Assembly (NCBI GenBank): GCA_963924555.1 | Contig: OZ004589.1 | Location: forward strand, 2,480,001 to 2,544,000 | DNA: 64,000 nucleotides | Source: Crambe crambe | Lineage: Eukaryota; Porifera; Demospongiae; Poecilosclerida; Crambeidae | Direction of reading: 5' to 3' | In this document: piece by piece, positions 16,744 through 58,258 of the stretch | How positions within the stretch are numbered: position 1 is the stretch's first letter | How the letters are laid out: each line of letters begins with the position of its first letter | Translations under genes and position numbers: made by a program | Notes under the pieces: generated by a model | Seen by the model: the letters and a program-made list of their open reading frames with translations, nothing else | Told to the model about the DNA's origin: nothing | Databases searched by the model: none

Positions 16744-17089
16744 GGCGGTAAACTGCATGGTTTGTACTCTCGATCTTGCATAACACGTCACATGTGTTCC
16801 TCCTCCCACATCTATTAGTAATAGGTTCTATGAATATGATTATATTAGGCCCGCTGATAGCTAGAGCTAGAGCTAGAGCTATAGCCTATGCTTATGATTA
16901 TATCTATTATCATCATCATCATTATTGCATATTCATTATTCACTATTAAATTTTATAACATCATTATGGTCATGTGATCAGACACGTTATAAAAAAGAGA
17001 TTGTACAGTATGCTACAAAGAGATTATATGAATCCAGTCACATCACTGCCATAACACCACACAGTAAACACTTTTGTTTTTATAGTGTA

Positions 17090-17764
17090 ATTTAACTACA
17101 TGCATTAGCTTCCCTAGTAGCTATATTCCATTGAAGTAATTTTCATTTTTCATTCCACAGTTCCCAATCTGCTACATATACAGTATACACCCTTTGTAGC
17201 TATCTGATAGTCTGAATTGATGTCAATGGCCAATAGACACAGTATAGCTACATAGCTTCGATGCATGGAGTCCAAACTCTCACAACTTTCAATGGGTTTC
17301 ATTGTGGAATGCAATTATTTGTATATGAATATGATTATGTTTTGCTTTAAACTTTACTAATAGTGGTATCAAAAACCACATACACTTGAATTGCTTGAAA
17401 AGTGTAGGAAAGTGTACAGTGAAAAAATATTCTAATTACATCCTGTAGAAACCCAACAATGTTTGACAGTATAAAAGAAACTCATTGATGCTACACCTTA
17501 CGTTGTAACCGCTATACTGTGGCGCTTAGCCGGCTATAGTCTAAGTCGGTTAATGCACTCAGCCTCGGAGTTTACTATTTTAGGACCTTCGAACTGTTGC
17601 CCATGATGACCTTGGTCACCATAATAGCAACAGCTTACAGGTTCCCAATAACCTATACTAAATGAGATCGCTCATGCACTAACTCTTTAATTGAGCTAGC
17701 TAGCTAAGACTATGGTTGCATCACAACGAAGCCAACAACGAAAGTTACGTACTAGGAACTTCAT
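17090..17764 (-). pseudogene. Second relic of an array gene 5' end
   Basis: Equivalent of the relic at 7170-8240, but without the Harbinger-like MITE. The signal exon (ATG at 17764) carries the same ACGT insertion as gene C and the same loss of the splice donor. The shared lesions show that this relic and the 5' end of gene C derive from one already damaged ancestor. Confidence 0.68.
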
Positions 17765-18116
17765 GGTGGTAAACTGCATGGTTTGTACTCTAGTATTATT
17801 GCATAATAAGTCACATGTGTTCCTTCTCATACGTAGGTTCTATGAATATGATTATTAGGCCTATGAAGATGAAGCAATAGTAGCTATAGCTAGAGCTACG
17901 TATAGCCTATGCTTATGATTATAGCTAGAAGTAACGTATATCATTAGAATGAAATAGAAGTTACGTATACGTATGTACGTATGTAGTAGTTAGCTATTGA
18001 ACAAAATACAGTATTTTTTAATTTCATGACCCTCTATAGCTAGCTAGCTAGAACTAAGTCTAAGGAATCTAATAGGCCTAGCTAGCTACGTACATTACTA
18101 CAGAAGTGACAGAAAT

Positions 18117-19958
18117 TTATTGAATATCTTCATACGAATTTTCAGACTCTGCATCTTCCTTGGAATGTTGATGATATGCCACATTCACTGATGTTATGAT
18201 AACATTGCCATCATTAGAATGGTCAGTGTTCAGTGTCACTTGATTATAAGCAGCGTTTACTTGTGTTGTCACGATACACCTCTTCCTATGCACTACTTTG
18301 GTGATAATTAGTGCTATGATGATAACTATAATGGCAACAAGTAGGAGTAACACAACTGGGAGTATCACAGAGATTGTTATTATTGAAGTTTTGCTTATAC
18401 TTGAAGTTGTATTTTCAGTGTTAGGGGTGGACCCCTGACTAGAATTAATAGTTTCATCAATAAACTGGGTTGTTGCATCAATAAACTGGGTTGTTGCATC
18501 AATAAACTGGGTTGTTGCAGCATCTGTACATAAAATACGCAGTAAAAACAAGTGTTAGCTATTATAGAATAAATTTTCTTACTTGATATGATATCTGCAT
18601 ACAAGTGGATTGCTAAGGATTGTAACTGATTTGAGGACACATTCGAAGGAGATGAGCGACCAATGTAATCTCTCAGTATTGTATTGTCTTCATCTCTGCC
18701 TATCAGTGGAATGGGATTTGAAGAGGGGAGTAATACACCCACAACATCCCCTCGTCTGATCTCTGTGTAGTTTGCAGGAGCAAGCAGTACTTGTGTGCAG
18801 AAGATACGAGCTGAATTGTTGACTGGTTGTAGTTCTATCAATGTCACACTTCCATCCACTACATAATACTGGTTTGAGCTATTGCGCCACAATGCAACAC
18901 TGGCAGTGTATGTCCCTTGGTTGGCTCTAGCACTTCTTGGATAGTAGCAATAGTGCCAGGTAGTAATCACACCATCACATTCAGCAGGAAAATTAATGTT
19001 GAGATAAGTTCCTTCTCCTCCACTGTAAGATGATGGAGTTCGACTACTTCCCACTCTACAAGTATTTTCTCTATCTATAATAATTATTTCAAGTTTATAA
19101 CAACAAAATTTTAATTTATAGCTGAACATTAACTTACCGATCGTTGCATGTAAAAGTAAAACATTGCCTGTTCTGGTGTCTGATCGAATAGTGTCTACAG
19201 TATCAAGTTGCAAATCAGCACAGCTCTCAAATTGATCAAAATTAACTTGGTACGGATTGTCATGAAATATAGTCACGTACAGAGGACGCATGTCTTGATG
19301 ACCTATTGAGCAAGCTGATATAACATCATTCGTTTGGATCTGAAATTTCTGACTTGAATTCAACAGGATGCTTTGACATCCAGATTCATTTAGACTTTCA
19401 TAGTTTACTATTAGAGTGAAGATGCTGTTGGGTACTGGGTGGTAGAGAGATGTGGAGGCATTCTGCCGATAGACCAGGAATTTAACTCTAAAATTATCCC
19501 TACTATCAGGACGATGATAGCAAAAGTTCCAACTAGTAACAGTTCCATTGCATTGTGATGGGGCATCAAAGTTCATGAAGAGTCCCTGTTGTGATGAGCC
19601 ACGTGTCATTGGTGATATAATATTATTTGTACCAAAAAGAGGACAGGATCGAGATTGTGATATCACCCCTACAGTATAACCAGGGGGAAAGAAAAAAATA
19701 GTTCAATGCTGTAGCTATTTATGATCTGTTTGAGATTAGGAAGTGATGACTTATATAGCTACGTGGTCTAGCCAGAGCTAGCTAGCTAGGTAGCTAACTA
19801 CCACTAATCCTACATTAGAATGAAACTCTAAGCCAATTTAGGCAATTACTAGCTCTATAGCTATACTTTTACAATTAGCTAGCTACACATAATTACTCTA
19901 TTAGCTATGTACCTCTTTGCATATAGATGAGAAAGGTAAGAGTTAACATGAGCTGCAT
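18117..19958 (-). CDS. Tandem receptor gene E, single-pass membrane protein with tyrosine tail
   Basis: Compact intact model of 491 residues: exons 19913-19958, 19138-19668, 18583-19074 and 18117-18523. The leader differs from the other copies (MQLMLTLTFLIYMQR), and intron 1 is only about 240 bp, so E is the most divergent and probably outermost founder-like member. It has two ectodomains (WNFCYHRP and WHYCYYPR variants), a stalk with three ATTQFID units, a membrane helix, and a tail with NAAYNQV, NVAYHQH and SYEDIQ. The intron between exons 2 and 3 has no in-frame stop, so a long open frame runs through it; clear GT and AG sites and homology show that it is an intron. Confidence 0.82.
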
Positions 19959-21934: not shown

Positions 21935-24900
21935 TTAACTTTCAGTGGAATGTTGAGCATACGCTGCATTTTCTGATGTCTCAATATTATCTGCTAGCAT
22001 TTCAGTGAGTTCTCCATATGCAGCATTTTCAGATATCTTGATACTGTCATCATTCGAGTGACCAACACAAGTAACAAAGGCTTGGCCATAAGCCATGTTA
22101 GGTTCAGTAAGCACAGAACTACCAGTATCGATAACCTGATTATAAGCAGCATTGTCTTGTGTCATAATAATGAATTCCTCTTCATACTCCACTTCATCTG
22201 AAATCATTTCCTCTCTAATAGAGTGCTGATTATATGCAACATTTTCTAATGTGGTAATATTATTTACTCTGGGATCGGGAATATCCTCATAAAATGCATC
22301 ATCCGAGTGACTACCGGATTCATTCTTGACTTCAGTAATGACTGCTGCATTGACATAACCACTATCTTTCTTCATCATGATAATGGGATTCTCTCTATGC
22401 TCCACCTCTGAAATCACTTCTCTCTCAGTAGAGTTTTCAAGGATCATTATATCGTCTACTCTTGGACCAGGAATTTCCTCATAAAATGCATCATCCAAGT
22501 GACTACCGGATTCATTCTTGACTTCAGTAATGACTGCTGTATTGGCATAACCGCTATCTTTCTTCATCATGATAATGGGATTCTCTCTATGCTCCACCTC
22601 TGAAATGACTTCTCTCTCAGTAGAGTTTTCATTGTCTACTCTTGGACCAGGAATTTCCTCGTGACTACTGGATTCATTCTTGACTTCAGTAATGACTGCT
22701 GCATTGACATAACCACTATCTTTCTTCGTCATGATAATGGGATTCTCTCTATGCTCCACCTCTGAAATCACTTCTCTCTCAGTAGAGTTTTCAAGGATCA
22801 TTATATCGTCTACTCTTGGACCAGGAATTTCCTCATAAAATGCATCATCCAAGTGACTACCGGATTCATTCTTGACTTCAGTAATGACTGCTGCATTGGC
22901 ATAACTGCTATCTTTCTTCGTCATGATAATGGGATTCTCTCTATGCTCCACCTCTGAAGTCACTTCTCTCTCAGTAGAATTTTCAAGGGTCATTATATCG
23001 TCTACTCTTGGACCAGGAATTTCTTCATAAAATGCATCATCCAAGTGACTACCGGATTCATTCTTGACTTCAGTAATGACTGCTGCATTGACATAACCAC
23101 TATCTTTCTTCATCATGATAATGGGATTCTCTCTATGCTCCACCTCTGAAATCACTTCTCTCTCAGCAGAATTTTCAAGGGTCATTATATCGTCTACTCT
23201 TGGACCAAGAATGTCTTCATAAAATGCATCATCCAAGTGACTACCAGATTCATTCTTGACTTCAGTAATGATTGCTGCATCGACATAACCGCTATCTTTC
23301 TTTGTTATGTTAATGGGATTCTCTCTATGCTCCACCTCTGAAATGACTTCTCTCTCAGTAGAATTTTCAAGGGTCATTATATCATCTACTCTTGGACCAG
23401 GAATTTCTTCATAGTAAGGATAATTTTCTGAATGACTGACTTCAATGAGTTCTGCTGCATTGACAATTTGCTTATTATTCTTCATCACATTGATGGATTT
23501 TTCTTTGTATTCCACCTCGTTTGAAATGATTTTCTTGCAAGAAATATATGCTGTATTTTTAGCTGTTGCAATATCATCTACTTTTGGATCAGAGAATTCT
23601 CCATGAGCTATATTAGTCTCAGTAAGTGCTACATCTCCTAGATTGCCCTTTTTGGCTCTCCTTCTCTTGAAGATGATGAAAACCCCTGCCACTGTCATGG
23701 CAATGATGCCAACCAACAGTACCACCAAGATTGATACTACCATAGCAACAAGCTTTCCAATGCTCAAGCCTGGAGGTGAGTCCATTGGGTCTGATGGTCG
23801 AGATATAATATGAGGTGTGATCCCATCAGGTGCAGGTGTGATCCCATCAGGTCCAGGCGTGATCCCATCAGGTGCAGGTGTGATCCCATCAGGTGCAGGT
23901 GTGATCCCATCAGGTGCAGATGTGATCCCATCAGGTGCAGATGTGGTATTAGTGGCTAATGTTACTATATTGCTGGTGTTACAACTGCCACATCTTCTAG
24001 GCTGGGAATTGGTGGTAGTGCATTTATCCGGAGGTTGGTATGGGCACTGCACTGTGGGAATTAGCACTTGAGTGATGTTACGGGAAAGCTACAGAAATAA
24101 TTTAAGACCATTATCGTACATAGCTAGCTACGTATATTGAGACATGCAAAGTATGTATAGATACAGGGCATGCATGTGGAGTGAAGCCTGTTTTCATATT
24201 ACTTAAGATAGCAGCTTAATAATTATTGGTTTCAGCTAGTTATACGCACAGGAACAGATTGGGGAGGGGGGAGCTAAACAATACGTACATAGATCCCTAT
24301 TGTTTGAGGGGGAGTGACAGATGCTTGAAAATGATATCAATTAAATCACTGACTCATACGTACAATAGTAATGTGCATGCATAATACATACGTAGCTACA
24401 TGAGTAACACCAATTCAGATAGGGGTTACTCTAATACACCTTTGCATTCTCCGCAGCACATCCTATCATAAGCTTACATTTTGAGTTATGCAGTGTCCTG
24501 TGACTTGACTAGATATCACAGAATCCTGCATGCGTCGTGCCAACTCGGGGTCCCCCCTCCAGTCCAGGCCTGAAAGAGCAGCTATAATACTGGATTCATT
24601 CCCTCCAATAATATCTAGAGCAGTTCCTGATAGACCTGTGCTATAAGTACAAGAAAGATTTTTTTAATGGAATAGCTATGTATGGGTATACATTCAAATT
24701 ATTGAGAATGACACCAAATCATTTCAGGCTGACACTTAATTTTGATACTCCTGAGTGAAAAATGGGTTTTATCCTTGCATACTATTTGATACATCACAAC
24801 CCCCCCCCCCCCCCCCCCCACCCCCCCCCACCCCATACATATAGCTACATATGAGCATATAATCATTATAGTGTACTTATTATAGTAAGTCGGCTGATTT

Positions 24901-27900
24901 TCACTGTATTGATCTTTAGCAGAGTCAGGTTCTGCAATTGGTAAGAGACTTTGATGGGCATAGGTAGATGGTCTGCTCTACAGTGTTACATACTCATAGC
25001 ACTATAGCTATTAATTTGATTACCGTAAAAGGAACAAAGAAAATCTGAACAGAGAAACATTGAGGCTTGGTTGGCTGGTACAGGATGCCAGGATGTTGAA
25101 TCCAAGGGGTCTTGGATAATAAACAAGAAAACTAAGACACATTTCATCTGCCGTACTTTCTCCACCCTGTTAATGATTATGAGATTCATGACATTCATAC
25201 CTTATTTTGTTTGTTTATTTATTAAATAATTATGGCATATGGTAACTAGCTACACTTTTTTCAAACCCCAAGCAGCTTTAATAATCTTCAATAGCTATCG
25301 GTTTTATCTTACCACAGTGATCATAGATCTTCCAGTAGTTCTATAATTACACTTCAATATAAGAATATCACCCTAAAGAAAAAGTAAATAATATTTAGCA
25401 CTGCATGTAGCAATTATTTTACTGCAACCTTATAATGGGTGCATTAGAGAATTAACTTACAGGCAAAACTAGGCGTTGTTTTTGGAGATGAGTAAATTGT
25501 TGGAAGTTGGCATCATAGTTTCTATTTTGGTCAATGGGCTCTATCTCTTCCAACACTCCACAATTGGTGTTCATGCGATATTGCTGAATAATCAGCCCAT
25601 GTCCTGAATGGGGACGGAGAGGTAAGGAATTGATGACTTCTGTTTAAAATGGAATTTTCTTACCGGCTGAATGGGCATGAAAGAGGTTAGCAAAAATTCT
25701 AATTCCTCCTTCGGGAATGTGCTGCGTAATAAGTATACATAATTTTGTCACTGATTAACTTATTTCAACTCCAAAAAAATCAGTACCAAATAAACTACAT
25801 ATGCTAATTATGGTTACTAAAGGAAGGAAGTAAGGACTTTGTGTTACACTCCTGAAAGGTTATGGGGACTTTAAAAAACAACAACAACACCAATACAACA
25901 AGAACAACAACAACAACTGATTTTTCACATTGGCTAGTTCATAGGTGATGATGGCTGATAGAACTTGTGCTTACTTACAAATTAATCATACACTGGTTCC
26001 ACATACATTAATTTAGTAATATTCTACTTGGAAAAAGTGAGAATGCCATATAATTACATAGTTAAATACTGAGACTCTATCGTCCTGAGTATACATACGT
26101 ACAACATTCATTAATACATACACAGTCAGTATCCTGAGTAATATACATACGTAATCACAATATTAATACATACACGCTCGGAACACTGTAGAGAGCATAT
26201 TCCTGCAACTGTGTAATTCTCTGTATAGGGTGGAACAATCATTGCTTGTGTTATAGCATGGCCAAGGATGAAAATCCCAGCCCTCTTTGCTGGTTCTTTG
26301 AGTGTGTAGAAAAATCGGAAACCAGAATCATCAATCACATCTGGAGTGCAAAAAAGAGCAAGGTTTCCATTGTATTTGTAGCTATAGCTCTACGTATCTA
26401 GCCTACGTACCTGGCACATTAGTGGGATTGTCATAGTGAATTTCTAGCACCAAAAACTCTTCTTGTCCTGGACCTCCCACAGGGTAAGCTACTCCTTCAG
26501 GATAAATGAAATCCTGTGTGCAAAAAAGTAAGTGTACACTCATGGCGGCTAATTTATTCATGTCACTGTATAGATATATGTACGTATTTTAGACTCTCTA
26601 ATTACGCTGATTAATTTCTACCCATGTAGCTATATACCTCTCCTCCAACTGCCCAACTTCCGATTGGAAGTCCTTGCAATTGTCTACATTCTCTGATGGT
26701 ACTGACTGCACTGTCACAAGGCAATGAGCTACCCTCAGCACCTGCAACAATGGGAGCACTGCAGAGGTAGGCCGTCATGTGGTGGACGAAAGATCGAGGG
26801 TGAGATGAGATCATTGGAGATACCTATGTATGTATACGTACATATGTATGTATGTAAAACATGATGTGGAAATTCTTGAGCAGTCTGACTGCCAGATAGC
26901 TCTTGTACTTTACCTATTTACAGCTACGATGGCAAGAGTGGCATCAATTTCTAGATTATTAAGTTCTAACTATAAGCTAGCTAGTTAGCTAATTCTGATT
27001 AGTGTGATTTAGTTTAGTAGTACATTGTAATTAAAACCTAATTAGAGTAACTTACCCTATAAATATAATGTGTAGTGTCAATTAATTCTTGTGGGAGTCT
27101 GAAGCCTGCACACCAGTAGGTAGTGGAATTCACTGGTATGGTAACCTGCACGGATTAACACTTTTCAACTAATTGGTTGAAGGTGAGGACACTCTATGTA
27201 TCAGAGGTGGAGCTAGAGTGGAACCTCTGAGTAAAGCACACTTTGGGATCAGCCACTTTGTCCTCTATAGAGAGGTTGTCCTTTCTTGGAGGTATATTGT
27301 TATGGGAAAGGGGCCTGAAAGAGTGTCCTTTGGGAGGTTATCCTTTTCTTAGAGGGTCCTTTCTCGGAGGTACTAATGCTATGGTAAAGGGGCCCGAAAG
27401 AGTGTCCTTTATTGGGAGGTTGTCCTTTTTTTGGAGGGTGGTACTATTGCTATGGGAAAGGGGCCTGAAAGAGTGGGGAGGTTGTCCTTTTCTTAGAGGG
27501 TCCTTTCGCAGAGGTACTAATGCTATGGTAAAGGGGCCCGAAAGAGTGTCCTTTATTGGGAGGTTGTCCTTTTTTTGGAGGGTGGTACTATTGCTATGGG
27601 AAAGGGGCCTGAAAGAGTGGGGAGGTTGTCCTTTTCTTAGAGGGTCCTTTCTCGGAGGTACTAATGCTATGGGAAAGGGCCTGAAAGAGTGTCCTTTATT
27701 GGGAGGTTGTCCTTTTCTTGGAGGGTCCTTTATCGGAGGTTCCACTGTATACTATGATCATGACTGTGTATTTATTAGTAGCTGGTGATCTAGCCATCAC
27801 TCATTTGATACTCTAGACATAATCATGATAATTGAGACAGTGATGTCATGCAGACTGAAACAGTGATTTAATTAGTGTTGCGTACATTCGAGACAGTGAT

Positions 27901-29764
27901 GTCTAGTGAGGTTTCAATGGTGAGAGTGGAATTCCTGTTGGGTAGTCCCCCAATGAGGTTAACACTTGTTGAGCCTCGGGCATTGTGTATCATAGCATCA
28001 CTTCCAGAGGGATCACTAGGATCAGTAAAACTGAAGCTCCACACCACACGATCAGTAGATGACTATTATAAAAGCAATTATAATAGTATTTCTGTTTACT
28101 TGTTGCATTAATGGTGCAAAGATCATACCTACCAAAATTAATTATCTTGTTTAATTTTTGATTAAGAGCTACACATAACTTAAAATGGACATGTGATTTC
28201 AGCTGTGGCTGTCACTGTGTTTGGAGTTTATTAATAAGTCATGATCAGCTAATTACTTGTAGCATCTATAGGCATGACAGTGCCCACCATTTGTTGGCAA
28301 ACATACATACCACACCTTTAGGCAAAGTATCAAATACTGAAGATGATTAAGGCATAGGAAGGTCACTTTCCCTTAATGTCATAGCTACCTCTAAATGAGG
28401 GTAACCTCTCTCTACAAGGCTATCTTTATGCAGTGTATCCTTATTTTAAAGCCTACTTGTGGTTAAGATCAAAGTACCGCGTTTATTGTTTACATAGGCT
28501 GAGCCGGAGTGAGGTACTATTCATATTACCTAGGATGTGGTTAGGGCAATATCAGGACATTTCCATTGTATACGCAGCTAAACCATGCCTTACCCTTGTG
28601 CTCTACAGGATATATTGCCTTTGCAGGCACTGCCCTCAGGTGTCAGGTAATATAATTAGCCCTCATAGGTGCATGGCTTAACTACATATTACGTATCAGA
28701 GTCTAAGACTACAGTATGTACATAAATAGCTGATGATTATACATACGTACTGTGATATCCAAATCTTGACCATCACATGTAGTGTAATTTCTTGAAAACT
28801 CAAGAATGGTGAATCCATTTTCCTCTTCGCCATTTACTATGAACCAGTCTTGGCTGAGATCAATGGATGGGATGCGACGGTGTTCAGCATATCTATCCTA
28901 CAAATAACATTCAGAAAAAGTGCATAACTCCTTGGTCCATGCCTGGCTGTGAAGATACAGTAGACGCATGTTTGATTATAGCTACAATATTGTAACTAGC
29001 TACTTGGTAAACCTACTCTAACTTATTAGCTACAGTAGTACGGTAACCAATTGGCCACATTTTAAGGCCCCATATCTGAAGACCAGCTATAATTTCTCCT
29101 ATAGGTAAAAGTGTTCCATTTTCATTTTCGAGAATGCACAAATGGAAGAACTTTTTTTTTTGGTTTACACTTCTTGTTGGGGGGGGGGGGGGGGTCAGAA
29201 TTTATACCCTGGTGATGAATCCTTCCCTAAGTGCTGTAGAAATAATGGCTGCTGTAGAAAATTATAGCCATTGTAGTGTTGAGCCAGATAGATTGCTAGC
29301 TAGACTGTAGTGTTAAGCCAGAAAGATTGCTAGCTAGCTCTAATGAACAGAACTATAGCTAGCTACATAGCTCTTTTTGCAGCCATTCGGGAGTGCCAAT
29401 GAGTTAATTTAGGTGGTGCAATTTTTGAGTACCCCCTGAAATGGTCCCTACTAACTTGGTGAGCATTAGCTATTTGACTTACATGGAAGTATGTCTGTCC
29501 TCCATTAACCCATCCTATCACAACATCAGAGGCAGGCATCTGTCCATTGGGAGACAGTCCGAAGCCCACCCATCCAGTAGTGCTCACATTCACTGCAAAA
29601 TGAATGGACTGTGTCTCCCTGGTGAAGTTCCAGTGCAATCCATAGTACTGGTTGTTCTGGTCATACAGAACAAGACTGAATGGGTACTCCTGCAGATTAA
29701 CTGGTACAGCTCTAGCAAGACCTACTGTTAAACTGATCAGCAATAAAAGAGTTGAAGACTCCAT
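21935..29764 (-). CDS. DBH/MOXD1-like copper monooxygenase fused to membrane helix and repeated phosphotyrosine tail
   Basis: Fourteen exons, 1323 residues: 29483-29764, 28751-28897, 27886-28062, 27056-27145, 26638-26823, 26411-26513, 26174-26340, 25664-25721, 25461-25603, 25313-25372, 25024-25166, 24877-24975, 24478-24640, 21935-24088. All junctions keep frame. A signal peptide leads into a DOMON domain (GWVGFGLSPNG), then the two copper type II ascorbate-dependent monooxygenase domains. Copper ligands are present: HHM (H246, H247), EIHYDNP (H320), FHAHSAG (H399, H401) and STADEMC (M480), with spacing like dopamine beta-hydroxylase. Such enzymes hydroxylate small amines or peptides in the secretory pathway or outside the cell. 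Unusually, a stalk of six 7-residue (T/S)xPDGIT units (about 657-698), a helix (about 719-746) and a 577-residue tail follow. The tail repeats FYEEIPGP and SGYVNAAVITEV. Its C-terminus resembles the array receptors (NAAYNQV, ENAAYGEL). Catalysis, substrate and signalling are inferred. Confidence 0.85.
22262..23425 (-). repeat. Coding tandem repeat of the tyrosine-motif tail
   Basis: Six to seven units of about 195 bp (one shortened) are highly similar at DNA level. Each encodes an acidic YEEI/YEDI motif followed about 42 residues later by an SGYVNA/SGYANA motif. One unit (around 22620-22670) is shortened and lacks the YEEI tyrosine (SSHEEIPGP). The near-identical DNA points to recent internal duplication. 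Confidence 0.85.
23817..23945 (-). repeat. 21-bp coding minisatellite in the stalk
   Basis: Six units of GGTGTGATCCCATCAGGTGC type encode repeated (T/S)APDGIT in the extracellular stalk, just outside the membrane helix. Such Pro/Thr-rich units usually act as spacer and O-glycosylation sites. Confidence 0.85.
24800..24834. repeat. Poly-C simple tract in intron
   Basis: A run of C residues broken by two A residues, in the intron between the exons at 24877 and 24640. It is not coding. Confidence 0.9.
27243..27745. repeat. Intronic minisatellite built from a dispersed GAGGTTGTCCTTT repeat
   Basis: Units of the form GAGGTTGTCCTTTTCTTAGA followed by GGGAAAGGGGCCTGAAAGAG recur with a higher-order period of about 144 bp. 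The flanking start (GTGGAACCTCT at 27220) matches a single-copy relative at about 41990-42115, so one dispersed repeat was locally amplified. Open frames on both strands through it are by-products of the periodicity. It lies in the intron between exons 27056-27145 and 27886-28062. Confidence 0.85.
29179..29194. repeat. Poly-G tract in intron 1 of the monooxygenase gene
   Basis: Simple run of G. Nearby, at about 29270-29335, a short unit AAGATTGCTAGCTAG is tandemly duplicated. Confidence 0.85.
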
Positions 29765-30200
29765 TTAGTATAGCTTTTACAGGATAGCTAGGTAGATACG
29801 TATGTATTAATTAGCTATAGCTAGGTAGTGTAGTATATTGTATGAAATTGTTATGTTCCTCATTTTTTTTATGCACGTAGTCAGACAAAGAGATAGACTC
29901 ATCAGCCAACACAAATATCAGCCAACACAAACAACTAATGAGTGATCACATCCTGTAAGTTAAACCCACTTCAGCTAGCTAAATATAGCCATCTGAGTTT
30001 GAATGCTATAGCTAAGCTATGGATAGAACATTTTTGTTTTTGTAAACATGTCATTTTGTTATTACATTTTGTGGTTTCTGGAATTTCATTTTATAGTAAT
30101 AATAATTATTAAGCTAGCTATTATTAAACTGGGCATGCATTTGCAGTAGCTAAGTGCAGTGGATCTTCAAGCTGAGGTTTGTGATCAGACATTGTCAAGA
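29765..30200. promoter_or_regulatory. Divergent intergenic promoter region (monooxygenase / RPTP1)
   Basis: Only 436 bp separate the two opposed start codons. A homologous stretch containing AATGAGTGATCACATCCTGT lies at 50284-50320 beside the duplicated pair. Its retention in both copies, with few other conserved words, suggests a shared bidirectional promoter or enhancer. No TATA box is convincing by eye. Confidence 0.5.
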
Positions 30201-33200
30201 ATGAAGCTCCTTTTTCTAATAATTATTTTCGGATGGAATATTGGCTGTTATTATGGAGAAGGTACGTATGTAAGAACTCCAAAATGGATATTATTAGCTA
30301 TAGCTAGCAAATAAAAATAACAGTTCAAACATAGCTAGCTAATTAATGTACTTTTTTTATAGCCATGATGCATGGTTCTCTCCCTTAAATACATGACTCT
30401 ACGTATCTTCACATCACAATACACACAGGCATACATAGCTACTACGTATAACTTAGAGGCTATGTACGTATATATGGCTTACTAGCTGCTGTATGAGATT
30501 TAAAGAACCTATTAGTCTATACAAGGTTTCATCTAAGGAGGGGTGGGTACAGGGGAAGCTTCAACCCTCCCCCCTTCAAGAGGCCCAACTTAATTCCCCC
30601 CCCCCCCCCCCCCCCCACAAAAAAAAAACAAAAAACAACAATAATTTGATAGAGCTTATAAAATTAATCATACCATCTAGCTAGTACATAGTGAGTTTTG
30701 AGTTTTGTTCCACTTAACTAAGAATTAGCTACAGGTAGAAAAAAAATTGATTTTCCATACATAGTATACAGTATAGCTAGCTATGTAATATTATACTCTC
30801 TACCCTTGAAAGGAAAGAATGCTATTTTTTCCCAATTAAAAAAATGATCAACAGAATATGACTGCAGCTAGCTAGCTCATACCACTAGCTAACTAGCTAT
30901 GTATTTTTTCAAACTGTTGACATGTATAGCTAGTTATACAATCACTATAATAGTGTATGATTCTATAGCTAGCTATAGCTTATCAATACTGCATTGCCAA
31001 CTAAACTGTTTTTGTAAATTGAATACTTGCATTTATAAATAACAATAGAGTGATCAAAATTAATAGCTGAAAAGTAAAAAAATTACATACCAAGTAGCTA
31101 TAGTTACATACGTAGTTAAGCTACCAAGTAGAAAAAAGAAAGTGATGTAATGTAATTAATATATGTAATGTAATGTAATGTAATGTAATGTAATGTAATG
31201 TGACGTAATGTGATGTAATGTAACGTAATTTAATAAAAATAATCAAAGCGCATATTTTTTCCCTGCGTACCACAGAGCTTCGCGGATCTCTTCATGCTAT
31301 TAACTTAGAGCACCTAACTCTACTTCAGTTTGGACAGCGCATCAGGTCAGAAATTCTACGTACTATAGTCTCAGACGATCATGAGGTTTGTACACTCTGG
31401 TCTCGCTGTTTGCTCTCAGACACTCACAGTCATTAGCTTGCCCAGCTTTCTTACCTAGCTACAAGGTCAAGGTCATGTGCATGACTATTTGCACATGCTA
31501 TTAATAAGGTATACGTACCATAGTTGCCTTTGGCACTGTGCCTCGGCACTCTGGTGCTAAGGCAAAAAAAAACATAGATTGTAAGAAGTAAATTCTTATT
31601 GCCTGTTCTTTTCTACTTGGTATGCGTTCGTTTGACTCTTGGAAAACTCTTGGGAAAAAAAACAACAAATTTTGTGGGGAAAATTTTTGATTTTGAAAAT
31701 TAATAGCTACATGCAAGAACAAGCTATTAGCAAACATATAATTGCTCTCGTTTGTATGTATGCCCCACCCACAGAAACTATATTATAGTTTCTGTGGGTG
31801 GGGCATACATACAAACGAGAGCAATATATGTGGAATTCAATGTAATTAATACAGGAATTCGGAATGTGAATGACACATGATTTATCAAATTAATTTTTCT
31901 AGCAAATTCGACGATTAAAATGTGGAAAGACAAGCACACTTCCTCCCACACCTACTCTACCTTCCCCTCCAAAACTGACTCCCTCCACACTCTACTGACG
32001 CTGTCTCCCACCACACTTCCACTAACACTATCTCTTACCTCAACTCCACTAATGCTGTCTCCCACCACACCTCTACTAACTCTGTCTCCCATCACACCTC
32101 TGTCACCCACCACACTTCCACTAACACTATCTTTTACCTCAACTCCACTAATGCTGTCTCCCACCACACCTCCGCTAACTCTGTCTCCGATCACACCTCC
32201 ACTAACACTGTCACCCACCACACCTTTCATGATGTTATCTCAGACCCCAACTACATTTCCCACCACAACTGCATCTCTCACTGCACCTCCTCCAGTCACA
32301 ACTCCAACTTCACCTTCCCTATTAGGCGGTAATATAGTTGGCTGGCTGCATGGTATAATGGTCCAGATATAGCTAGCTAAATGTTAGGTACTGCATTTCA
32401 CAGGAATAGGAAAGGCAATAATTAGCTAGTTATACGTATGTATATAGGTTAGCCTCAGTCCCAGACCTTTTACCCTATGCACGATAGAATAAGGCTCCAT
32501 TTCTAAAATGGTCAATTGAATATCCACAGAAATTTCCTACTCTATACTCCAGGCTTACAAGGGATTTAGCTCCATAGAAAAATGTATTAGCTAGGGCATG
32601 ATAAACTTACTACTGTGGTGAAATCTCACAATTACCTTTACATGTATGTGTAGCTATAGTCACAGATATAATTATTATCATATACCATTTAGCTTGCGAA
32701 GCTTGATAACCTGTGGAGTTGTTGATAAATTTATTATAGCTATGTAATAAGTTCAAGTATAGCTATATTATTCAGAACTTGCTTTGGCTGGTGCAATTGC
32801 TATTGGAATACTGGTACTCCTACTAATGCTGATTTGTGTGATTGTGTCAGTGATATTCAAGTAAGTGAAGAAAGAATACGTGTTATCATTATTAGCTATT
32901 ATGGTAAATTGCACCATTATTAATCTTCTAGTGGAACAACAACCAATTTGAAACTTGCTGCTACCCTCTTTGTAATAATATTATTATAGATGCCGAAACA
33001 AAAGAGGAAAGAATTCCTTAGTGGAGAAACGATCTTCTCATTCTAAAGAAGATGGAATGAACTCAGAGTTTAAAAAAAGTGTAGGTATTGAGCTAGAAGA
33101 AATATCGACTAATGAAGAAATTGAGAGGAGTGAATGCATTTATGAAAATTCTGCATATTGTAAGTGCTAGCTAGTTGTATACATAGTATGAAATAATTTC

Positions 33201-36200
33201 TTTTTTTGCTATGATTATACAGTTAAAGATCACATGAAGCTTATACCAGTTGATGAATTTGGGGAACATGTCCAGCACATGCATACAGACAGGGACAAGT
33301 GGTTTGAAATGGAATATAGTGTATGTACTTACTGAAGAGTATAGACACTACTATAAAGTATAGCTTGTAACTAATACACATACATACTCCCTGCATTGAA
33401 GCAAGTTTCTCTTTCACCATGTTAGGATGTGGAAAATTCACCCCAAGCTGACTATAGTATATCTCAAGTGACCGAAAACCGAAATCGTAATCGTTTTGGA
33501 AACATCTTCCCTTGTAAGCCAGAGAATTAGGCTGTTTAAATGCCCTACAAGCATAACATTCACATTCTCTATAATATTATGCAGATGATTTCAATCGAGT
33601 GGTCCTGAAGACTCTACCAGGAGTGGACCATTCAGACTACATTAATGCCAGCTATATTGATGTCAGTATAAAGCCAATTAACCATTACTACAAGTAGCTA
33701 GCTACATATGAGTCTATCTGCATAATCTATGATTTGAAACTTCAGTTATGTATATGCAGGGATACAAGAGAAAGAATGTGTATATTGGAGCACAGGGTAC
33801 GTGTGAAGCTATCTCTATAATAGCAATATCATTATTGAAATGCATGACTATAATAAAAGGTCCGATGAGAAATTCAGTGGAGGATTTTTGGCGAATGATT
33901 TGGGAGCAGCATATCCCTACTATTGTTATGCTCACAAGGGTTTTTGAAGGCAAGGTATGTTCTAGGGAACTGAGTCTCAGTTAAATAAACAATTTCTTGT
34001 TGAACCCAAGAAACTATGTGTAGCTAACTACAGCAGGCTATGTCATGTAGCTATGTGTTCTCTTAATTTCAGAAAAAGTGTGAGGAATACTGGCCTAGAA
34101 ATGCAGATCAACCATTTATTCCAGCTCCTGGAAGTACTTTGTGTGTGGAGTTTGATTCCATGACTACCTTGGCTGAATTTGCCATAAGAAAAATGACAGT
34201 CACTAAAGTGAGTCAATTAAATTAGCATGGGACCCATTATTTTTTATGTGACTGGTCACTATAATTATGATGATATAATATATATAATTGTAGTAATAAC
34301 AGCATTTATTAGTCACAAAATTTTCACTGAAAGAAATTGGGATCCATCCAAGTGACTCACTAGCTACATCACCCTATAACTAATGCTAATCTAATACTGC
34401 AGTGACATAATCATTAAGTAGCTAGCTAGCTGTAAATGTATAGCTAATCATGATGCTTAACAAAATAATTTATGAACTGCTCTCACCTTCTCCTTCCCCT
34501 CACCCCATTAATCTTCACCCCCACAGAGTGATGAGGCCATGGCCCCACCTCTTGAAGTCACCATGTTCCATTATGTGGCATGGCCTGATCATGGAGTCCC
34601 TTCCAATGCAGTCTCCATGATCAACTTCATTAGGAGAGTGAGAAAGACCCATCCTTACTCCAAGGAGGACCTGCTACTGGTGCACTGCAGTGCTGGTGTG
34701 GGGAGGACAGGGACCTTCATCACACTGGACTATATGCTGGAGAGGATCAAGAATGAGAACACCATCAACATCCACGAGTTTGTGTGCAACCTGAGGAAGC
34801 AGAGAGTGCTAATGGTGCAGACACTGGTTAGCTACTAAAAATAAGGATGATGTCAATCAATTTTTAAAATTATAACTCCAATGATACAGTCTCAGTATAT
34901 CTTCATTCATAATGCTTTGGATGAGCTGTTCACTTGTGGGGAGACAGAGATAGAAGCTACCAACATGAGAGTTGCTGTAAGCCAACTCAACAGGACTGTT
35001 CAGTCAGGAATTGGAACTGGTTTCCAGAAACAGTATGAGGTACAGTAACAGTACATGGGAATGTTTAGCTGATACATTATGTATGTAGGAATTAATCAAC
35101 TCTTCTTCATGCCTTCAGATTTTGGGTAAAGTTTCTTGTAAAATTCTTGATCTTGACTGCTCTGATGCCACTAGTGAGTACAATATCTCAAAGAATCGCT
35201 ACCAAGAAAAGATTCCTTGTAAGTAGTGTAGTAGATAAAAATCTAAATCTGAATAATTATAAAAATATGCAGATAACCACAGTCAAGTGCATCTTAAGCA
35301 TTCAGCAGCACAGGGATCTGATTACATCAATGCCAGCTTTGTTGAGGTATTTTGATAACTATAGTCCACTGTAATGTTTTGCTACACTGAAGACACACTG
35401 TATATAGGGTTACAGACAGAAGAGGGCATACATTGCTACTCAGGGACCACTCCCACACACTGTTAATGACTTCTGGAGGATGGTTTGGGAACGGGAGGTG
35501 AAATGCATTATCGTGTTGTGCAGGACTGAAGAGAAGGGAGAGGTAATTATGCATGGGTGGGCTGAAATTTATTTGAATGTAAAGCATTACCTGAAAGTGA
35601 TGAAAAGCTTAGCCATCATAGCTAATAATATTTTGGTTCAATATATAGGAAGTGTGTCACCAGTATTGGCCAAAAGTTAAAGGAGACAGTGAAACTTTTG
35701 GCAAGTGTACAGTCACACTAACTTCGCAGGAAAACAATAATGACTACATAATCAGGAAGATGGAGATATCATCATCAGAGAATCACTCCAGGATGTCTGT
35801 CTCACAGAGTGGGTTTACTGTTACCCAGTTCCAGTATGCAGTATGGCCAGAAGATAGAGTCCCTCTAGTGACCACATCCCTGTTGGAGATAATTAACTTG
35901 GTACAGAAGGTTCAGATGGGATCAGGAAATAAAGCAATAGTTGTCATGTGCAAGTAAGTTTTAGAGTATAGCTATATTCTAACCCAGAAAAGATTCTAGA
36001 TAAAGTAGAATGTTTGAGGATGCACAATGAGTAGATTAATTTAAGTATTGAATAAAAACTAAAGTGAAGGTGGCAAATAATTAGATCACACAGATGCAAC
36101 ATGACATGTCAACAGTTGTTTTATTTCATGTAGTGATGGAGTTGGTCGGACTGGTGCCTTCATCACCATTCATGCTCAGATGGAACGCATGAAGGCAGAG

Positions 36201-36518
36201 GCTGTGGTCAACATCTTCCAGTTTATCAAAGCCATCAGGATCCAGAGAGCGGGATTGGTCTCAAACAAGGTACGTACATGATTATGATAATGTCCCAGTC
36301 AATCATAAGATAAACTTGTCAAATGAGGACTTCTAGCTGCACATAGTCTTTTCATTGCCACTGAGACCTTATAGCTACCTAGTGAAAAAGTGCAGAAATA
36401 ATTCCTATTCAATTTTTGATATCATTGAATTTAGGAGCACTTTGAGTTCTGTCATCAGGTATTGGCTGATTTTTTGGATGGCTTTGACACATATGCTAAC
36501 TTCAAGGAGATCATATAG
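30201..36518 (+). CDS. Receptor-type protein tyrosine phosphatase RPTP1 (mucin-like ectodomain, tandem PTP domains)
   Basis: Eighteen exons, 851 residues: 30201-30261, 31903-32328, 32776-32860, 32990-33159, 33223-33320, 33426-33513, 33585-33661, 33760-33796, 33860-33954, 34073-34207, 34527-34826, 34890-35039, 35119-35218, 35273-35346, 35408-35542, 35649-35953, 36134-36269, 36435-36518. The order is signal peptide, Thr/Pro/Ser-rich mucin-like stalk (21-162), membrane helix (about 163-190), then D1 and D2 phosphatase domains. D1 is complete: NRNRNRF, WPDHG (443-447), [11 protein letters not shown] with Cys478, and a QYIFIH Q-loop segment. It should dephosphorylate phosphotyrosine inside the membrane. 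D2 has WPE and VMCNDGVGRTG, so it is probably weak or regulatory. The stalk start is read in a different frame from RPTP2, restored by a compensating length change. It lacks the Ig-like modules of RPTP2. Confidence 0.88.
30595..30617. repeat. Poly-C tract followed by A-rich stretch
   Basis: Simple C run in RPTP1 intron 1, with no coding role; the open frame across it is spurious. Confidence 0.85.
31161..31229. repeat. (TAATG)n microsatellite
   Basis: About twelve units of TAATG, the last few varied to GACGT and TAACG, in RPTP1 intron 1. Confidence 0.9.
31235..31352. repeat. Dispersed repeat copy (inverted partner at 50750-50866)
   Basis: AATAATCAAAGCGCATATTT through GGACAGCGCATCAGGTCAG is the reverse complement, with mismatches, of 50750-50866. 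Both copies lie upstream of or in intron 1 of the two phosphatase genes, but in opposite orientation. It is an unclassified interspersed repeat. Confidence 0.7.
31741..31825. repeat. Perfect 85-bp palindrome
   Basis: Two exactly complementary 42-base arms around a single central T (left arm starts ATTGCTCTCGTTTGTATG). The right arm plus its flank matches the lead-in to the mucin exons of RPTP2 (GGGTGGGGCATACATA at about 51870). It therefore probably arose by inverted duplication of local intron sequence rather than by transposition. Confidence 0.92.
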
Positions 36519-48390: not shown

Positions 48391-50003
48391 AGATTCAAGA
48401 ATAGCTGTATCATTTGGACAAGTACAATTTACATGCATGAGCAAGCAAATATTGCAATCAATAGTTATAATGTAGCTAGATTAGTATTGCATGCATGAAA
48501 CTTTGTTAGCTAGCTATTTGACTCAGTGATCTTAGCTCGATATAATGTATATGTATGTGTTATCAAATTAGGATTTTTATCTTCTGTTCATGTGAAACTA
48601 TATATACACAACCATCCCTATACACGTTTATTTTAAGCAATGGTGTCAGATATATCAGATATCACATGATTCCCAGCCCATGACCCAGTAGACCTGTCAG
48701 CCACTGATCATTCCTAATCATTCTCAGTGTATAGTGACTACACCAGTGAGTTAGAAACAAAAAAAAAATACAATAGCTAAAACTGATGTGAAGGGGAAAA
48801 TATTATATAGCTAAATACAAACTGAGTCACAAATAATGACAGGCCATATGATGTGAGATGCTCAACATGCAGGACCACATAAACTTAAAGATAAGGATAG
48901 TTAGCTTAAGCAGTTATGTAATGTGGGCGTGTTTATTGAAAATATGATTGGTTAAGTCTACCATTCACTAGGATATTTTGTATCCGGATACATGGGTATA
49001 CTTTATATCTAGATACTTATATCCAAGTGTACGTACATCCACGAGGCAACTTATATTTAATTAAAATGAATTGCTAACATATTGTGTAGCTCAGGTGGTA
49101 GTCTATTAGATATACCTGGGGACTACAAGAGTAATAGCTATGCAATAATAATAGTAATCGTTATACTTTAGTTGGAATTAGCTATAGATGGCTATAATAG
49201 CTAGCTATGTTAATTAAATTCAACAGAGTAATATAAACTAGCTATAGCTATTTATTCCCAACTATACAAATGTTCTAGATCAGCATGCAGCACCACTGCA
49301 TGTTTATTTCCATCGGACACTACTAAACTGTTGTTTTTTTTATATAAACTGGATTCAACCGCACAAGTAGAGCTAGTTAGCTATAATGTGACAATAATTA
49401 TGCCTGCATGTGACTATGTATGTAACTATTAATACTATGAACTATGAGTGTATGCTATTGCATGAACGCAGTGTAAAAATAGCACCTACATACAATGATG
49501 TATAATAATGTGGCAAATTTAAAATTTTGTGCCGTGAATAAAACAAGGGAATTATCATGTAGCTACACTTCAATTTCAGTGGGGAAAAAAAAATTTCAAA
49601 CCATGAAAATTTCATAGCTACGTACATAATAATTCTGTGTGATGAACCAAAGACCCTCTACTAAGTTGTTATCTTTATAATACCCATGCATGGAGTGAAC
49701 TATTGAATGTTGATCAAGTTACAAATATGTAGCATTGGCAATAAATCTATTCTTACTAGCTACATAGACCTGGTACCTATGACCTAGCTTTATAGCTAAG
49801 TAACCTACATAATGTAGGTTACTTAGTGACTGTTGATTTATGTGAAAATTAGTGATTTTTAGCCCATTATTGGCTATTTCGTAAAGTGCTACATGTAGTT
49901 TCAGCATAGTTATAACTATACAATCATGTGCATTATTGATACATTCACATATGTAATACCTGACTAGCTCCAGTGTAGTACTAACCAAACACAAAGTACA
50001 GAC
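48391..50003. other. Intergenic region downstream of the GPCR
   Basis: No coding exon supported. It is AT-rich, with AGCTAGCTA words and one perfect 31-bp palindrome (49796-49826). The short minus-strand open frames show no homology or splice context. Confidence 0.6.
49796..49826. repeat. Perfect 31-bp palindrome
   Basis: CTAAGTAACCTACAT, a central A, then the exact complement. It could form a hairpin or be a protein-binding site; no family is recognised. Confidence 0.85.
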
Positions 50004-50115
50004 AGTGCAATCCATTAGTATTGGTTATTCTGGTCATATGGAGTAAGTAGTACAGCTCTAGCAAGACCTACTGTTAAACTGATCAGCAATAAAAGAGTTG
50101 AAGACTCTGTTCAGC
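50004..50115 (-). pseudogene. Relic of monooxygenase exon 1
   Basis: Minus-strand sequence matches the 5' end of the exon at 29483-29764, including the leader (CTTTTATTGCTGATCAGTTT and following) and the segment reading NQYYGLHW-like. The start codon is changed (ACAGAG where the gene has ATGGAG) and about 35 bp are missing inside. No other exon of the monooxygenase follows. It is the remnant of the second copy of the divergent monooxygenase/phosphatase pair. Confidence 0.78.
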
Positions 50116-51114
50116 TAAATAGCTTTTGCAGGAGATACGTAGGTAGCTAGATATGTACAAACTATTGCAAATTAGCTAGCTATAGTTCTCTTGATACGTA
50201 TGTTGTATGAAATTATCATGCTCCTTATTATTTTTGTAGTCAGACTTACGTACCAGCCAACACAAGCAAGATTTTGTGGCCAACTAATGAGTGATCACAT
50301 CCTGTAAGTTAAACCCATTTCACAGGGCCGACTGTCGATACAAGTAATGATGAATGGGTGAAATTATGGTAGTGCATGCATATTTAGTTTACGTAGCTAT
50401 AGATCCTTATACTTATTATAGCTATTCTACTAGGTTTTTATAGACAAGCAGGGTATAGGGCTTCCCGAACTATTTTTATCAATAACTATTTTTCTGTTTG
50501 ATCTTGGAAAAAAAAAATTTTTTTTTGAAATCTATATGAAAAAATGGGTCTTGGTAGCTAGCTACTATGTTTTGGTATTCTGAAACTGAAATTTTGATGA
50601 TGTAATGCATAATGTAATAGTGCGGGCGGCATTTTTTTCGAAACAGCTGTCGAGCTGAGGCTTGACGCTGCAGGAAAAAGCTGCTTGCACGTTTTCTTAG
50701 ATTGTATGGTAAAGATCGTCAACATGGAGACTGGAGTACAATTTCCGACCTGATGTGCAGTCCAAAACGATGTAGAGTTAGGCGCTCTAAGTTAATAGCA
50801 TGAAGAAGGACGAAGTTGCTTTAGAGATCTGTGATGGCAGGGAAGAAACGCGCTTTGATTATTTTAGGTAGCTATTCCTCTTTTTTTCCCTTTTCTTTTC
50901 CTACTTGGTATGAGTATGTAATATTTTTTTTAGAGGGGGGGGGGGTGATAGAGCCCAGTAATGAGTATCGAGGTGCACAGGCCTGTGAGTTCTAGCTATG
51001 GAACATTTTTGTAAACCTCAGTCCTGTTCTTTGTTATAAGCTAGCTACATTTTTGCACTTGCAGTAAGTTCAGTGGATCTTCAAACTGATGTTTGTGATC
51101 AGACTTCGTCAAGA
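50116..51114. promoter_or_regulatory. Duplicated upstream region of RPTP2
   Basis: Shares AATGAGTGATCACATCCTGT (about 50288) and the 50 bp before the start codon with the RPTP1 upstream region. Between them lie unrelated sequence and the dispersed repeat at 50750-50866, followed by a poly-G tract at about 50935-50945. The proximal matching block is the better promoter candidate. Confidence 0.45.
50750..50866. repeat. Dispersed repeat copy (inverted partner at 31235-31352)
   Basis: CTGATGTGCAGTCCAAAACG through GCGCTTTGATTATTTTA is complementary to 31235-31352 with scattered mismatches. The family is unclassified. Confidence 0.7.
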
Positions 51115-54100
51115 ATGAAGCTCCTTTTTCTAGTAATTATTTTCGGATGGAATATTAGCTGTTATTATGGACAAGGTATGTATAAGAACTTCAAACACGG
51201 ATATATATTATTAGCAATGTGATGGTTCTCTCCCTTTTTTAACCAATTCAAGCAAGTAAAAATAAACCCTATAGCCTTTAATATGTACATCAATCATAAT
51301 TGTTCTTTGTTTAGCTATAAATGACCACAAAAAAATAATGAGATGAAACCTGAGCACATGCAGCATGAAATGGTGGAATGATATTGTATAGCTAATAATT
51401 ATTCTAACATATTTTCAGATCTCAGTATCATCTTTCATGGCAAGAATTATACCAGCAATGACATCATAGATATAACTGATGTTGGTGAGGGTAAAACTGA
51501 TGATGGTGTGATCTGCATGACGACAAGGACTGACTGCTGTACAAATATGAATGGTGAAACACGAAATGGGGAGTGGTACTATCCTAATGGTGATGAGGTT
51601 CTCACAAAGGGGATGAATCAAGATTTCTATAGGAATCGAAAGACCCAACAGGTTATTTTGAACAGAAGAAATAATGCTATGAGTCCAACAGGAAATTTCT
51701 GCTGTGAACTTATGAACCCAACAGAAAGGATATGTATCACACTAGAAGCAAGTAAGCAAACCATGCAGAGCCACTCATTGGGATCACTGAAATTTTTGGT
51801 ATAGCTATACCAAGATGTAGTTAAAATTTGAAGAGTTATTTCCTGGTGAATATATGTAGTTCCTATGGGTGGGGCATACATAGTGAGATAATTAGATTAA
51901 TGAGAGCATGTACGGAATTCATACAAGTTAGGAATGTGAATGACACATAAATTTTTCTAGCTATTTTAACGCCTAGAACAAGTGGATTGACAACCACACT
52001 TCCTCCCACACCTACTCTACCTTCTCCTCCAACACTCTCTCCCTCCACACCTCTACTGATGCTGTCTCCCATCACACCTCCACTAACACTGTCTCTTACC
52101 ACAACTCCACTAACTCTGTCTCCCACCACACCTCCACAAATGCTGTCGCCCACCACACCTTCCCTTCAGACCACATTTCATTTTCCCACCACATCTCCAA
52201 AACTATCTCACACCACATCTCCTTCAGAACTATCTCCAGCCGCATCTCCTCCAACGTTATCTCACACGCCTTCTCCAAAACTATCTCCCACCGTAACTGC
52301 ACCTCTTCCTACACTTCCTCCAACTACATCTCCCACCACAACTGCATCTCTTCCTACACTTCCTCCAACTACATTTCCCACCACAACTGCATCTCTCACT
52401 GCACCTTCAGTTACACCTCCTCCAACTTCACCTTCGCCATTAGGCGGTAATAATTATAGCTATAGCCTATTATTATAGCTACTGTGAATTAGTGGAAAAA
52501 CAGAGGCAGAACTGCATGAGGTAGCTACATACTGTACGTGGCTATGATCATCACATCATTCAGACAGGACCATAACTATATTATTATGTAGTTGATGTAG
52601 TTGATTGGATTGCATTAGCTAAGTCCTGAATTTATATGGCCACAGAGAAAAGAAGCTATTATTGCAGTTGTAACATTATGTATACATAATGATAAATTTT
52701 GTGTTGAAAATGTTTCGTTTTGAAAAATAATAGCTACATGCAAGAACAATTCTAGCCATTAGCTATAATGATAGCTGCACTTCAATTTTAGCAAAAAAAA
52801 TTAGTGTCACTATGGTAGATGTTATTTCTATTAGTATAGCTACTAGCTTCAGCATACTATTAAAAATGCAGGACTTTTAGCTAGGTATGTAATTTAGGGA
52901 AAAAAATCTTTTCATGATAGCTGATATAGCTATATTAATATTTTTTATGCCACAAATAACGAGATGAAGCCAATGCACATGCAGCATGAAACTGATGATC
53001 ATAAATCATGTAATTTATTTTGTAGATCTCCGTATCTTATTCCAAGGCCAGAATTGTTCCAGCAGTGACATCATATTATCTCTAACTTCTATTGGTGAGG
53101 GTACAAATAGTGTGATCTGTATGACAACAAGGACTGACTGCTGTTCAAATGCTCCGGGTGAAACACGAAATGGGGAGTGGTACTATCCTAATGGGGATAT
53201 TATTCCTAATTCAGTGGCTAATCAAGATTTCTATAGAAATCGAAGGACCCAACAGGTTATTTTGAACAGAAGAAATAATGCTATGAGTCCAACAGGAAAT
53301 TTCTGCTGTGAACTTATAAACCCAACGGAAAGAATATGTATCACACTAGAAGCAAGTAAGCAAACCATGCAGAGCCATTCTTCATTCTTATTGGGATCAC
53401 TGAAATTTTTGGCACCAAAATTTTAAGAGTTATTTCCTGGTGAATATAATAGTTCCTGTGGGTTGGGCAGAGCATGTACGTATAGGAATTCATACAAGTT
53501 AGGAATGTGAATGACACATGATCTATCACATTAATTTTTCTAGCAATTTCAATGACTAGAACATGTGGAATGACAACCACACTTCCTCCGGCACCTTCTC
53601 TACCTTCTCCTCCAACATTGTCTCCCTCCACATCTCTACTGACACTGTCTCCCACCACACCTCCACTAACACTGTCTCTTACCACAAGTCCACTAACTCG
53701 GTCTCCCACCACACCTCCACTAACACTGCCCCCCAAACCTTCCCTGATGCTCTCTCAGACCACACTTCATTTTCCCACCACATCTCCCACAACACTATCT
53801 CACACTATATCTCCTTCAGAACTATCTCCAGCCGCATCTCCTCCAACATTATCTCACACACCTTTTCCAAAACTATCTCCCATCACAACTGCATCTCTTC
53901 CTACACTTCCTCCAACTACATCTCCCACCACAACTGAATCTCTTCCTACACTTCCTCCAACTACATCTCCCACCACAACTGAATCTCTTCCTACACTTCC
54001 TCCAACTACATCTCCCACCACAACTGCATCTCTTACTGCACCTTCAGTTACACCTCCAACTTCACCTTCCCTATTAGGCGGTAATAATTGTTGGCTGGCT

Positions 54101-58086: not shown

Positions 58087-58258
58087 ATATAGACAATTAA
58101 AAATACTGTGGCAAGAATATTTTTTACATACACAGCTAGCTACATATAGCTATACCTCTTGCCCCCTTAGTCTAAGAGTGATAATTATCTTATAACATGC
58201 AATAGCTAATTTTATTGGCCAGAATAATCAATTTCAGATTAGCTAATTATCATAATAG

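Follow-up and report, generated by a model that had tools for sequence, protein, structure and literature searches.

The 64,000-nt stretch of the Crambe crambe genome analyzed here (assembly GCA_963924555.1, contig OZ004589.1, positions 2,480,001 to 2,544,000; hereafter the window) carries a single minus-strand gene, at 29764-21935, in which a copper monooxygenase of the DBH/MOXD1 type is followed by a membrane helix and a tail resembling those of a local receptor family. This fusion gene comprises 13 exons that are read in one frame of 1290 amino acids plus a stop codon, with GT...AG at all 12 introns. The continuous frame claimed in the original prediction, made from the same DNA, was thus confirmed, while its count of 14 exons had to be corrected. 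The gene contains the following features, the C20 genes being the monooxygenase paralogues described further below.

29764-29483, 28897-28751, 28062-27886, 27145-27056, 26823-26638, 26513-26411 and 26340-26174, minus strand: coding exons 1-7
25721-25664, 25603-25461, 25372-25313, 25166-25024, 24640-24478 and 24088-21935 (including the stop), minus strand: coding exons 8-13
28036..29650, minus strand: DOMON domain, residues 39-152, exons 1-3 (Pfam)
26418..27903, minus strand: Cu2_monooxygen (CuH), residues 197-326, ligands H246, H247 and H320 (Pfam and alignment)
25110..26287, minus strand: Cu2_monoox_C (CuM), residues 347-490, ligands H399, H401 and M480 (Pfam and alignment)
24478..24640, minus strand: exon 12, kept in the C20 paralogues and followed by the conserved exon 12/13 intron
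23990..24088, minus strand: first part of exon 13, residues 574-606 (VQCPYQPPDKC...QPRRC), for which the C20 enzymes have a homologous stretch in their last exon
23762..23989, minus strand: Thr/Pro/Ser-rich stalk, with 21-bp repeats inside at 23813-23945
23672..23761, minus strand: membrane helix, about residues 683-712, then KRRRAKK
21938..23665, minus strand: predicted cytoplasmic tail, residues 715-1290, 22 Tyr
22265..23413, minus strand: 192-bp (64-residue) tandem repeat, 6.1 copies, each full unit with YE(E/D)I and Y(V/A)(N/D)

The Pfam matches to DOMON (E-value 2.4e-29), Cu2_monooxygen (7.8e-34) and Cu2_monoox_C (4.3e-38) were all above the curated cut-offs. The residues H246, H247, H320, H399, H401 and M480 aligned with the copper ligands of human DBH chain 4zel_A (numbered as in PMC4846438), with 6 of 6 being kept. 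The DOMON and DBH/MOXD1-type domains with all six copper ligands, as predicted, were therefore supported by both the Pfam matches and the alignment. Human DBH (4zel) was also the best match in the PDB, with an E-value of 2e-68 across residues 42-491, the other 13 of the 14 PDB sequences matched being PAM/PHM. No PAL family was found in the Pfam scan of residues 1-573 and exon 13, and the scan of exon 13 gave no kinase family, so the protein does not classify as a receptor tyrosine kinase.

The N-terminus of the fusion protein, MESSTLLLLISLTVGLARA, coincides with a hydropathy peak and reads by eye as a signal peptide. Kyte-Doolittle windows gave one membrane helix, at about residues 683-712, these limits being our judgement. 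The helix and the basic stop behind it predict a type I topology. Counted from RRRAKKG, the tail has 576 residues, with 22 Tyr among them; hence, the predicted helix was found, but the length of 577 given for the tail was not. In intron 3 of the gene (27250-27740), copies of an AT-rich tandem repeat of the 'aaaggacaacctccc' type were seen by eye.

The relatives of both halves were sought in the whole genome (143.1 Mb in 119 contigs, the window lying on the contig designated C12). The search with the enzyme part returned 108 exon-level matches, which for the most part fall into two clusters on contig C20.

C20:672-703 kb and C20:1683-1723 kb: the two clusters, in which DBH-type monooxygenase genes (12 assembled) stand in tandem, the family being greatly expanded locally

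Exons 1-12, the start of exon 13 and the introns of the fusion gene are homologous to those of the 12 assembled C20 models. The exon 12 donor lies at offset 0 in 11 of the 12 C20 genes and at +3 in one, and the exon 13 acceptor at offset 0 in 11 and at -3 in one. The 24478/24088 junction, singled out for checking in the original prediction, is thus within 3 nt of expectation in 12/12 paralogues. Boundaries elsewhere in the C20 models are less certain, with the exon 12 acceptor displaced by 15 nt in three genes and the exon 11 acceptor by 12 nt in C20a_g5. The latter gene appears to be damaged, its model having a replaced start of exon 1 and no CuM Met, and is still counted among the 12, that is, in the counts for splice junctions, in the tree and the pairwise ratios of nonsynonymous to synonymous substitution (dN/dS), in the unique changes, in the C-termini and in the ligand table. 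On contig C14, a model with 5 stops (C14_g2) was left out of the tree, the selection estimates and the ligand table, and C14_g1, without a model of exon 12 or 13, gave no dS. The C20 clusters also contain more exon-1 pieces, and contigs C1 and C19 a partial copy and a weak match, respectively, all of them outside the assembled set.

The last exons of the C20 genes begin like exon 13 of the fusion, in most cases with ...VQCxYxxPxxC...QPxxC. Their frame stops 0-1 residue past a C-terminal hydrophobic stretch, taken as the hydropathy maximum, in 11 of the 12; the twelfth, C20a_g3, has a C-terminus nearly that of C20a_g1 and its hydropathy maximum elsewhere. Assuming no further splice from the last exon, such an end would resemble a glycosylphosphatidylinositol (GPI) signal.

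Exon 13 itself stays open in one frame over 717 codons and contains the C20-type end of the enzyme part plus the receptor-type membrane helix and tail. When used to search the genome, it retrieved itself and two other places on C12, 110 and 139 kb away, which matched the end of the stalk, the membrane helix and the first part of the tail at 48-50%; no tail like that of the fusion was matched in the C20 clusters. In the DNA comparison, the C20 last exons matched the first ~100 nt of exon 13, beginning slightly ahead of it and extending to about codon 33 (6 alignments, 68-75%), and the last exons of the two C12 receptors matched query nt 541-761, from the end of the stalk onward, at 69 and 71%. 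The stalk DNA matched neither parent. Because the flanks match different parents and the stalk neither, the breakpoint is placed in the stalk, inside one open exon; and since exon 13 alone holds the enzyme-family end and the receptor helix and tail, the join does not depend on splice prediction. A two-gene reading was rejected on the same ground of a join within one exon, the preceding intron being conserved.

The receptor genes at 110 and 139 kb are composed of two ectodomain exons of about 180 residues and a last exon with the helix and tail. Their family has the membrane helix, the basic stop, a DVALTE(T/A)N segment and an NxAY tail in common with the fusion. For the ectodomains, Pfam gave no usable family, and the AlphaFold2 models were poor, with a mean predicted local distance difference test (pLDDT) score of 38.2 and 49.9. 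Four genes of the family adjoin the fusion gene in tandem (window 2056-19702), a further piece being located at C12:2466829-2467173.

18117..19702, minus strand: nearest receptor-family gene, with two ectodomain exons, a membrane helix and a short NxAY tail
11915-13529 and 2056-3640, minus strand: further receptor-family genes, with a partial one at the window edge (1-477)
8589-10112, minus strand: receptor-family gene with ectodomain 1 broken by stops

The two ectodomains (D1/D2) of these array receptors are weakly alike (24-28%), and queries with them matched array genes only, with none in window 19.7-64 kb at an E-value of 1 or better. The claim that a copper monooxygenase is joined to a receptor-like tail was therefore upheld, the tail being homologous to two receptor tails on the same contig. 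As judged by these sequence comparisons, the gene is a lineage-specific chimera, formed from a C20-family enzyme whose GPI-signal-like end was swapped for a stalk and the helix and tail of a local receptor.

We then analyzed the tyrosine motifs of the tail. It contains six YE(E/D)I sites (four YEEI and two YEDI) and six Y(V/A)(N/D) sites (three YVN, two YAN and one YVD), the YE(E/D)I tyrosine being missing at one repeat boundary. Phosphorylated YEEI is the classic ligand of Src-family SH2 domains, and phosphorylated YxN is the Grb2-type ligand. The YEEI and YVN sites that had been predicted are thus present; their abundance was discarded as independent evidence, since it results mostly from the 192-bp tandem duplication and YxN is not above chance. 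Motif enrichment was assessed in a 266-residue non-redundant tail with 20000 shuffles. NxAY, which the receptors share, was observed 6 times vs. 0.10 expected (0/20000 shuffles) and is the motif that departs most clearly from chance. YEEI-like motifs were observed 2 times vs. 0.11 expected (p 0.005), the pair being opposite ends of a single unit.

Unit 0 and the terminal part of the tail aligned with both receptor tails better than any of 1000 shuffles. With the consensus repeat unit, 2/1000 shuffles were as good against the receptor tails and 0/1000 against the first unit. The receptor tails of the window array matched the terminal part (1/1000 shuffles) and left the units unmatched (66 and 80/1000). 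These alignments indicate that one receptor tail unit was amplified to about eight, with 6.1 in the clean array, as compared to about one unit in each receptor tail. The YE(E/D)I of the fusion aligns with YREF or YGEF of the receptors, and the Y(V/A)(N/D) tyrosine of the repeat has no counterpart in them.

The enzyme part is under purifying selection. Its pairwise dN/dS against the 12 C20 genes ranged from 0.297 to 0.348. Three-point distances, computed with C20a_g1, g2, g3, g4, g6 and C20b_g1, g5, g6 only, gave a fusion-branch dN/dS of 0.335 for the enzyme part and 0.287 for its Cu domains, on a branch that includes pre-fusion time. For exons 2-12, the value was 0.325 vs. 0.226-0.369 for five C20 genes. 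The repeat units had a pooled ratio of nonsynonymous to synonymous differences per site (pN/pS) of 0.44, with pair ratios of 0.22-1.77 and a pS between unit pairs of 0-0.20, these pairs being few and non-independent. The dS between the fusion and the C20 genes was 0.65-1.0 and the DNA identity to the receptors about 70%; such divergence from both parents speaks against an assembly join of present-day copies. The CuM motif reads HAHS in the fusion vs. HTHL in 12/12 C20 genes, C14_g1 and human DBH, and HTH in PHM; the corresponding changes, T400A and L402S, sit beside both CuM histidines and flank H401. Of the 241 sites at which the 12 C20 genes are invariant, 21 carry a change unique to the fusion, as compared to 0-10 for the C20 genes in a like test, where close sister genes score low by construction.

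Exon 1 (29764-29483) showed a fusion-branch dS of 0.194 vs. 0.487 for exons 2-12, and a protein identity of 75-85% with exon 1 of most C20 genes. This low dS may reflect gene conversion or stronger constraint.

DBH and MOXD1 have the same three domains as the fusion, in the same order and with the six ligands aligned; to our knowledge, neither has a long tyrosine-bearing cytoplasmic tail. The original prediction had compared the fusion with these two enzymes, which was incomplete, as it omitted PAM, where a membrane helix and a cytosolic domain are already found. In PMC6529398 and PMC3241674, PAM is described as an ascorbate-dependent copper monooxygenase whose unstructured cytosolic domain serves in trafficking, through signals that it contains, and in nuclear signalling, as it can be set free and reach the nucleus. 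PAM thus resembles the fusion, with its predicted topology, in having a lumenal Cu-monooxygenase core, one membrane helix and a cytosolic domain, but it has PAL, whereas the fusion has DOMON and a much longer tyrosine-repeat tail from the local receptor family. DBH ends in a dimerization domain, according to PMC4846438, whereas the fusion ends in a helix and long tail; MOXD1 is membrane-associated in the endoplasmic reticulum, according to PMC8067471. The C20 monooxygenases differ from the fusion by ending in a hydrophobic stretch instead of a stalk, helix and tail, and the two-domain receptors of C12 by two ectodomain exons that the fusion lacks, the helix and tail being homologous. DBH-like genes are reported from all sponges in PMC12665527, where one of the three DBH-like proteins of Halisarca dujardini has the domain architecture of the fusion and a transmembrane region is predicted in 0/3. 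Our literature searches turned up no DOMON monooxygenase described as having a tail of this type, which is no proof of absence. The fusion looks like a new kind of enzyme-receptor, yet PAM is a precedent for a cytosolic signalling domain on a copper monooxygenase.

Taking these data together, we favor with moderate confidence, as an explanation of the whole, a chimeric gene whose product would be a receptor-like enzyme signalling via a phosphotyrosine tail. We infer that the protein would be a type I enzyme of the cell surface or secretory pathway, with an ectodomain that binds or hydroxylates a small extracellular substrate and a tail that is phosphorylated by the tyrosine kinases of the cell and then recruits SH2 or PTB proteins. 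Tyrosine-kinase signalling would in this way receive information on the substrate, on copper or redox state, or on the clustering of DBH-like dimers. The genome contains an ample phosphotyrosine toolkit, with 135 exon-level SH2 matches (matches, not a gene count) and two long frames, L048 and L052, with a membrane helix, a Tyr-bearing tail and a kinase domain, the latter recognized by eye. According to PMC4846438, the DBH dimer adopts open and closed states, and DOMON is proposed as a possible allosteric regulator, which offers a route from ligand or redox state to the helix. A fuller version, rather doubtful at this level of detail, would have a DBH-type ectoenzyme, probably an open/closed dimer, report substrate, copper or redox state via the helix to the phosphotyrosine array, after its GPI-type anchor was swapped for the helix and tail of the neighboring receptor.

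Several observations weigh against a receptor-like enzyme of this kind. In the non-redundant tail, YxN (1 vs. 1.17 expected) and YxxPhi (4 vs. 3.15) are at chance level, and NxAY is kept in the receptors and at both tail ends, having been lost from the repeat units. The 21 unique changes, two of them beside the CuM histidines, may have altered the activity. The tail search found no second fusion copy in the genome, the tree of the fusion and the C20 genes singles out no nearest C20 gene, and the pre-fusion time and few repeat pairs mentioned above limit the estimates of selection. Some of these observations would suit an ectodomain that folds and binds copper or a ligand, its catalysis lost or changed, and thus acts as a sensor by binding only. 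The shift from HTHL to HAHS (T400A, L402S) beside both CuM histidines and the excess of unique changes (21 of 241 vs. 0-10) point in that direction; however, all six copper ligands are retained and, of the parts tested on the fusion branch, the Cu domains show the strongest constraint (dN/dS 0.287), which leaves this as a possible though not a preferred account. The tail could also serve trafficking, its tyrosine motifs being signals for sorting and endocytosis without phosphotyrosine signalling. YE(E/D)I also fits the YxxPhi form of sorting signals, which counts in favor of such a role. PAM, a relative in the Cu domains, has cytosolic trafficking signals and phosphorylation-controlled sorting (PMC6529398). 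Nevertheless, with YxxPhi at chance, a tail derived from a receptor family and NxAY as its enriched motif, we consider trafficking unlikely, and phosphotyrosine signalling the likeliest role that can be predicted for the tail.

The single copy and the recently amplified repeats (unit-pair pS 0-0.20) would be compatible with a young chimera, in which the tail is tolerated baggage on a simply anchored monooxygenase. The frame of 576 tail codons is nonetheless open, the length changes of the repeat preserve it and the pooled pN/pS is 0.44; moreover, a DNA divergence of about 30% from either parent shows that the fused exon is not brand new, so that we give this explanation little credence. Least probable by far is an artefact by which two neighboring genes, or an assembly join, were read as one, because the join lies within one open exon behind a conserved exon 12/13 intron, and no copy now present in the genome comes close to identity with either half (dS 0.65-1.0; about 70% DNA identity).

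The fusion bears on the open question of how, before there were neurons, animals acquired receptors that recognize small oxidisable molecules. The presence of both parents in the same genome makes the origin datable and each half of the fusion testable against an unfused relative, in the pairs of GPI-like enzyme vs. tailed enzyme and receptor vs. enzyme-receptor. If the proposed phosphotyrosine role is correct, the cytosolic signalling role known from PAM would extend to a DOMON-type monooxygenase, with tyrosine sites, and animals would have had a route from a metabolic ectoenzyme to a monoamine or redox receptor without a G-protein-coupled receptor (GPCR) or kinase domain.

The remainder of the window contains a duplicated block, in the second copy of which the monooxygenase part is degenerate.

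29695-36711 and 50041-58509: duplicated block with the fusion 5' flank, part of exon 1 and a divergent receptor-type tyrosine phosphatase
50003..51210, minus strand: degenerate copy of the fusion 5' flank and part of exon 1

A match to exon 1 at 50107-50018, which might have been another copy of the fusion, turned out to be a degenerate fragment. The receptor-type tyrosine phosphatase sequence is in tandem on the opposite strand and faces the 5' end of the fusion gene. Its phosphatase-domain exon (34512-34838 and 56075-56401) encodes an identical protein in both block copies, and Ig-like ectodomain exons were matched in the second copy only (51421-51759 and 53028-53363). Shared regulation with the fusion gene, which would make the phosphatase a possible partner, is only a suggestion. 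The plus strand at 39931-48390 has matches to IgGFc_binding, Ig and 7tm_2 and may be one adhesion-GPCR-like gene. Finally, a retroelement with reverse transcriptase and tyrosine-recombinase frames, which we take to be perhaps DIRS-like, is located on the minus strand at 60016-62584.

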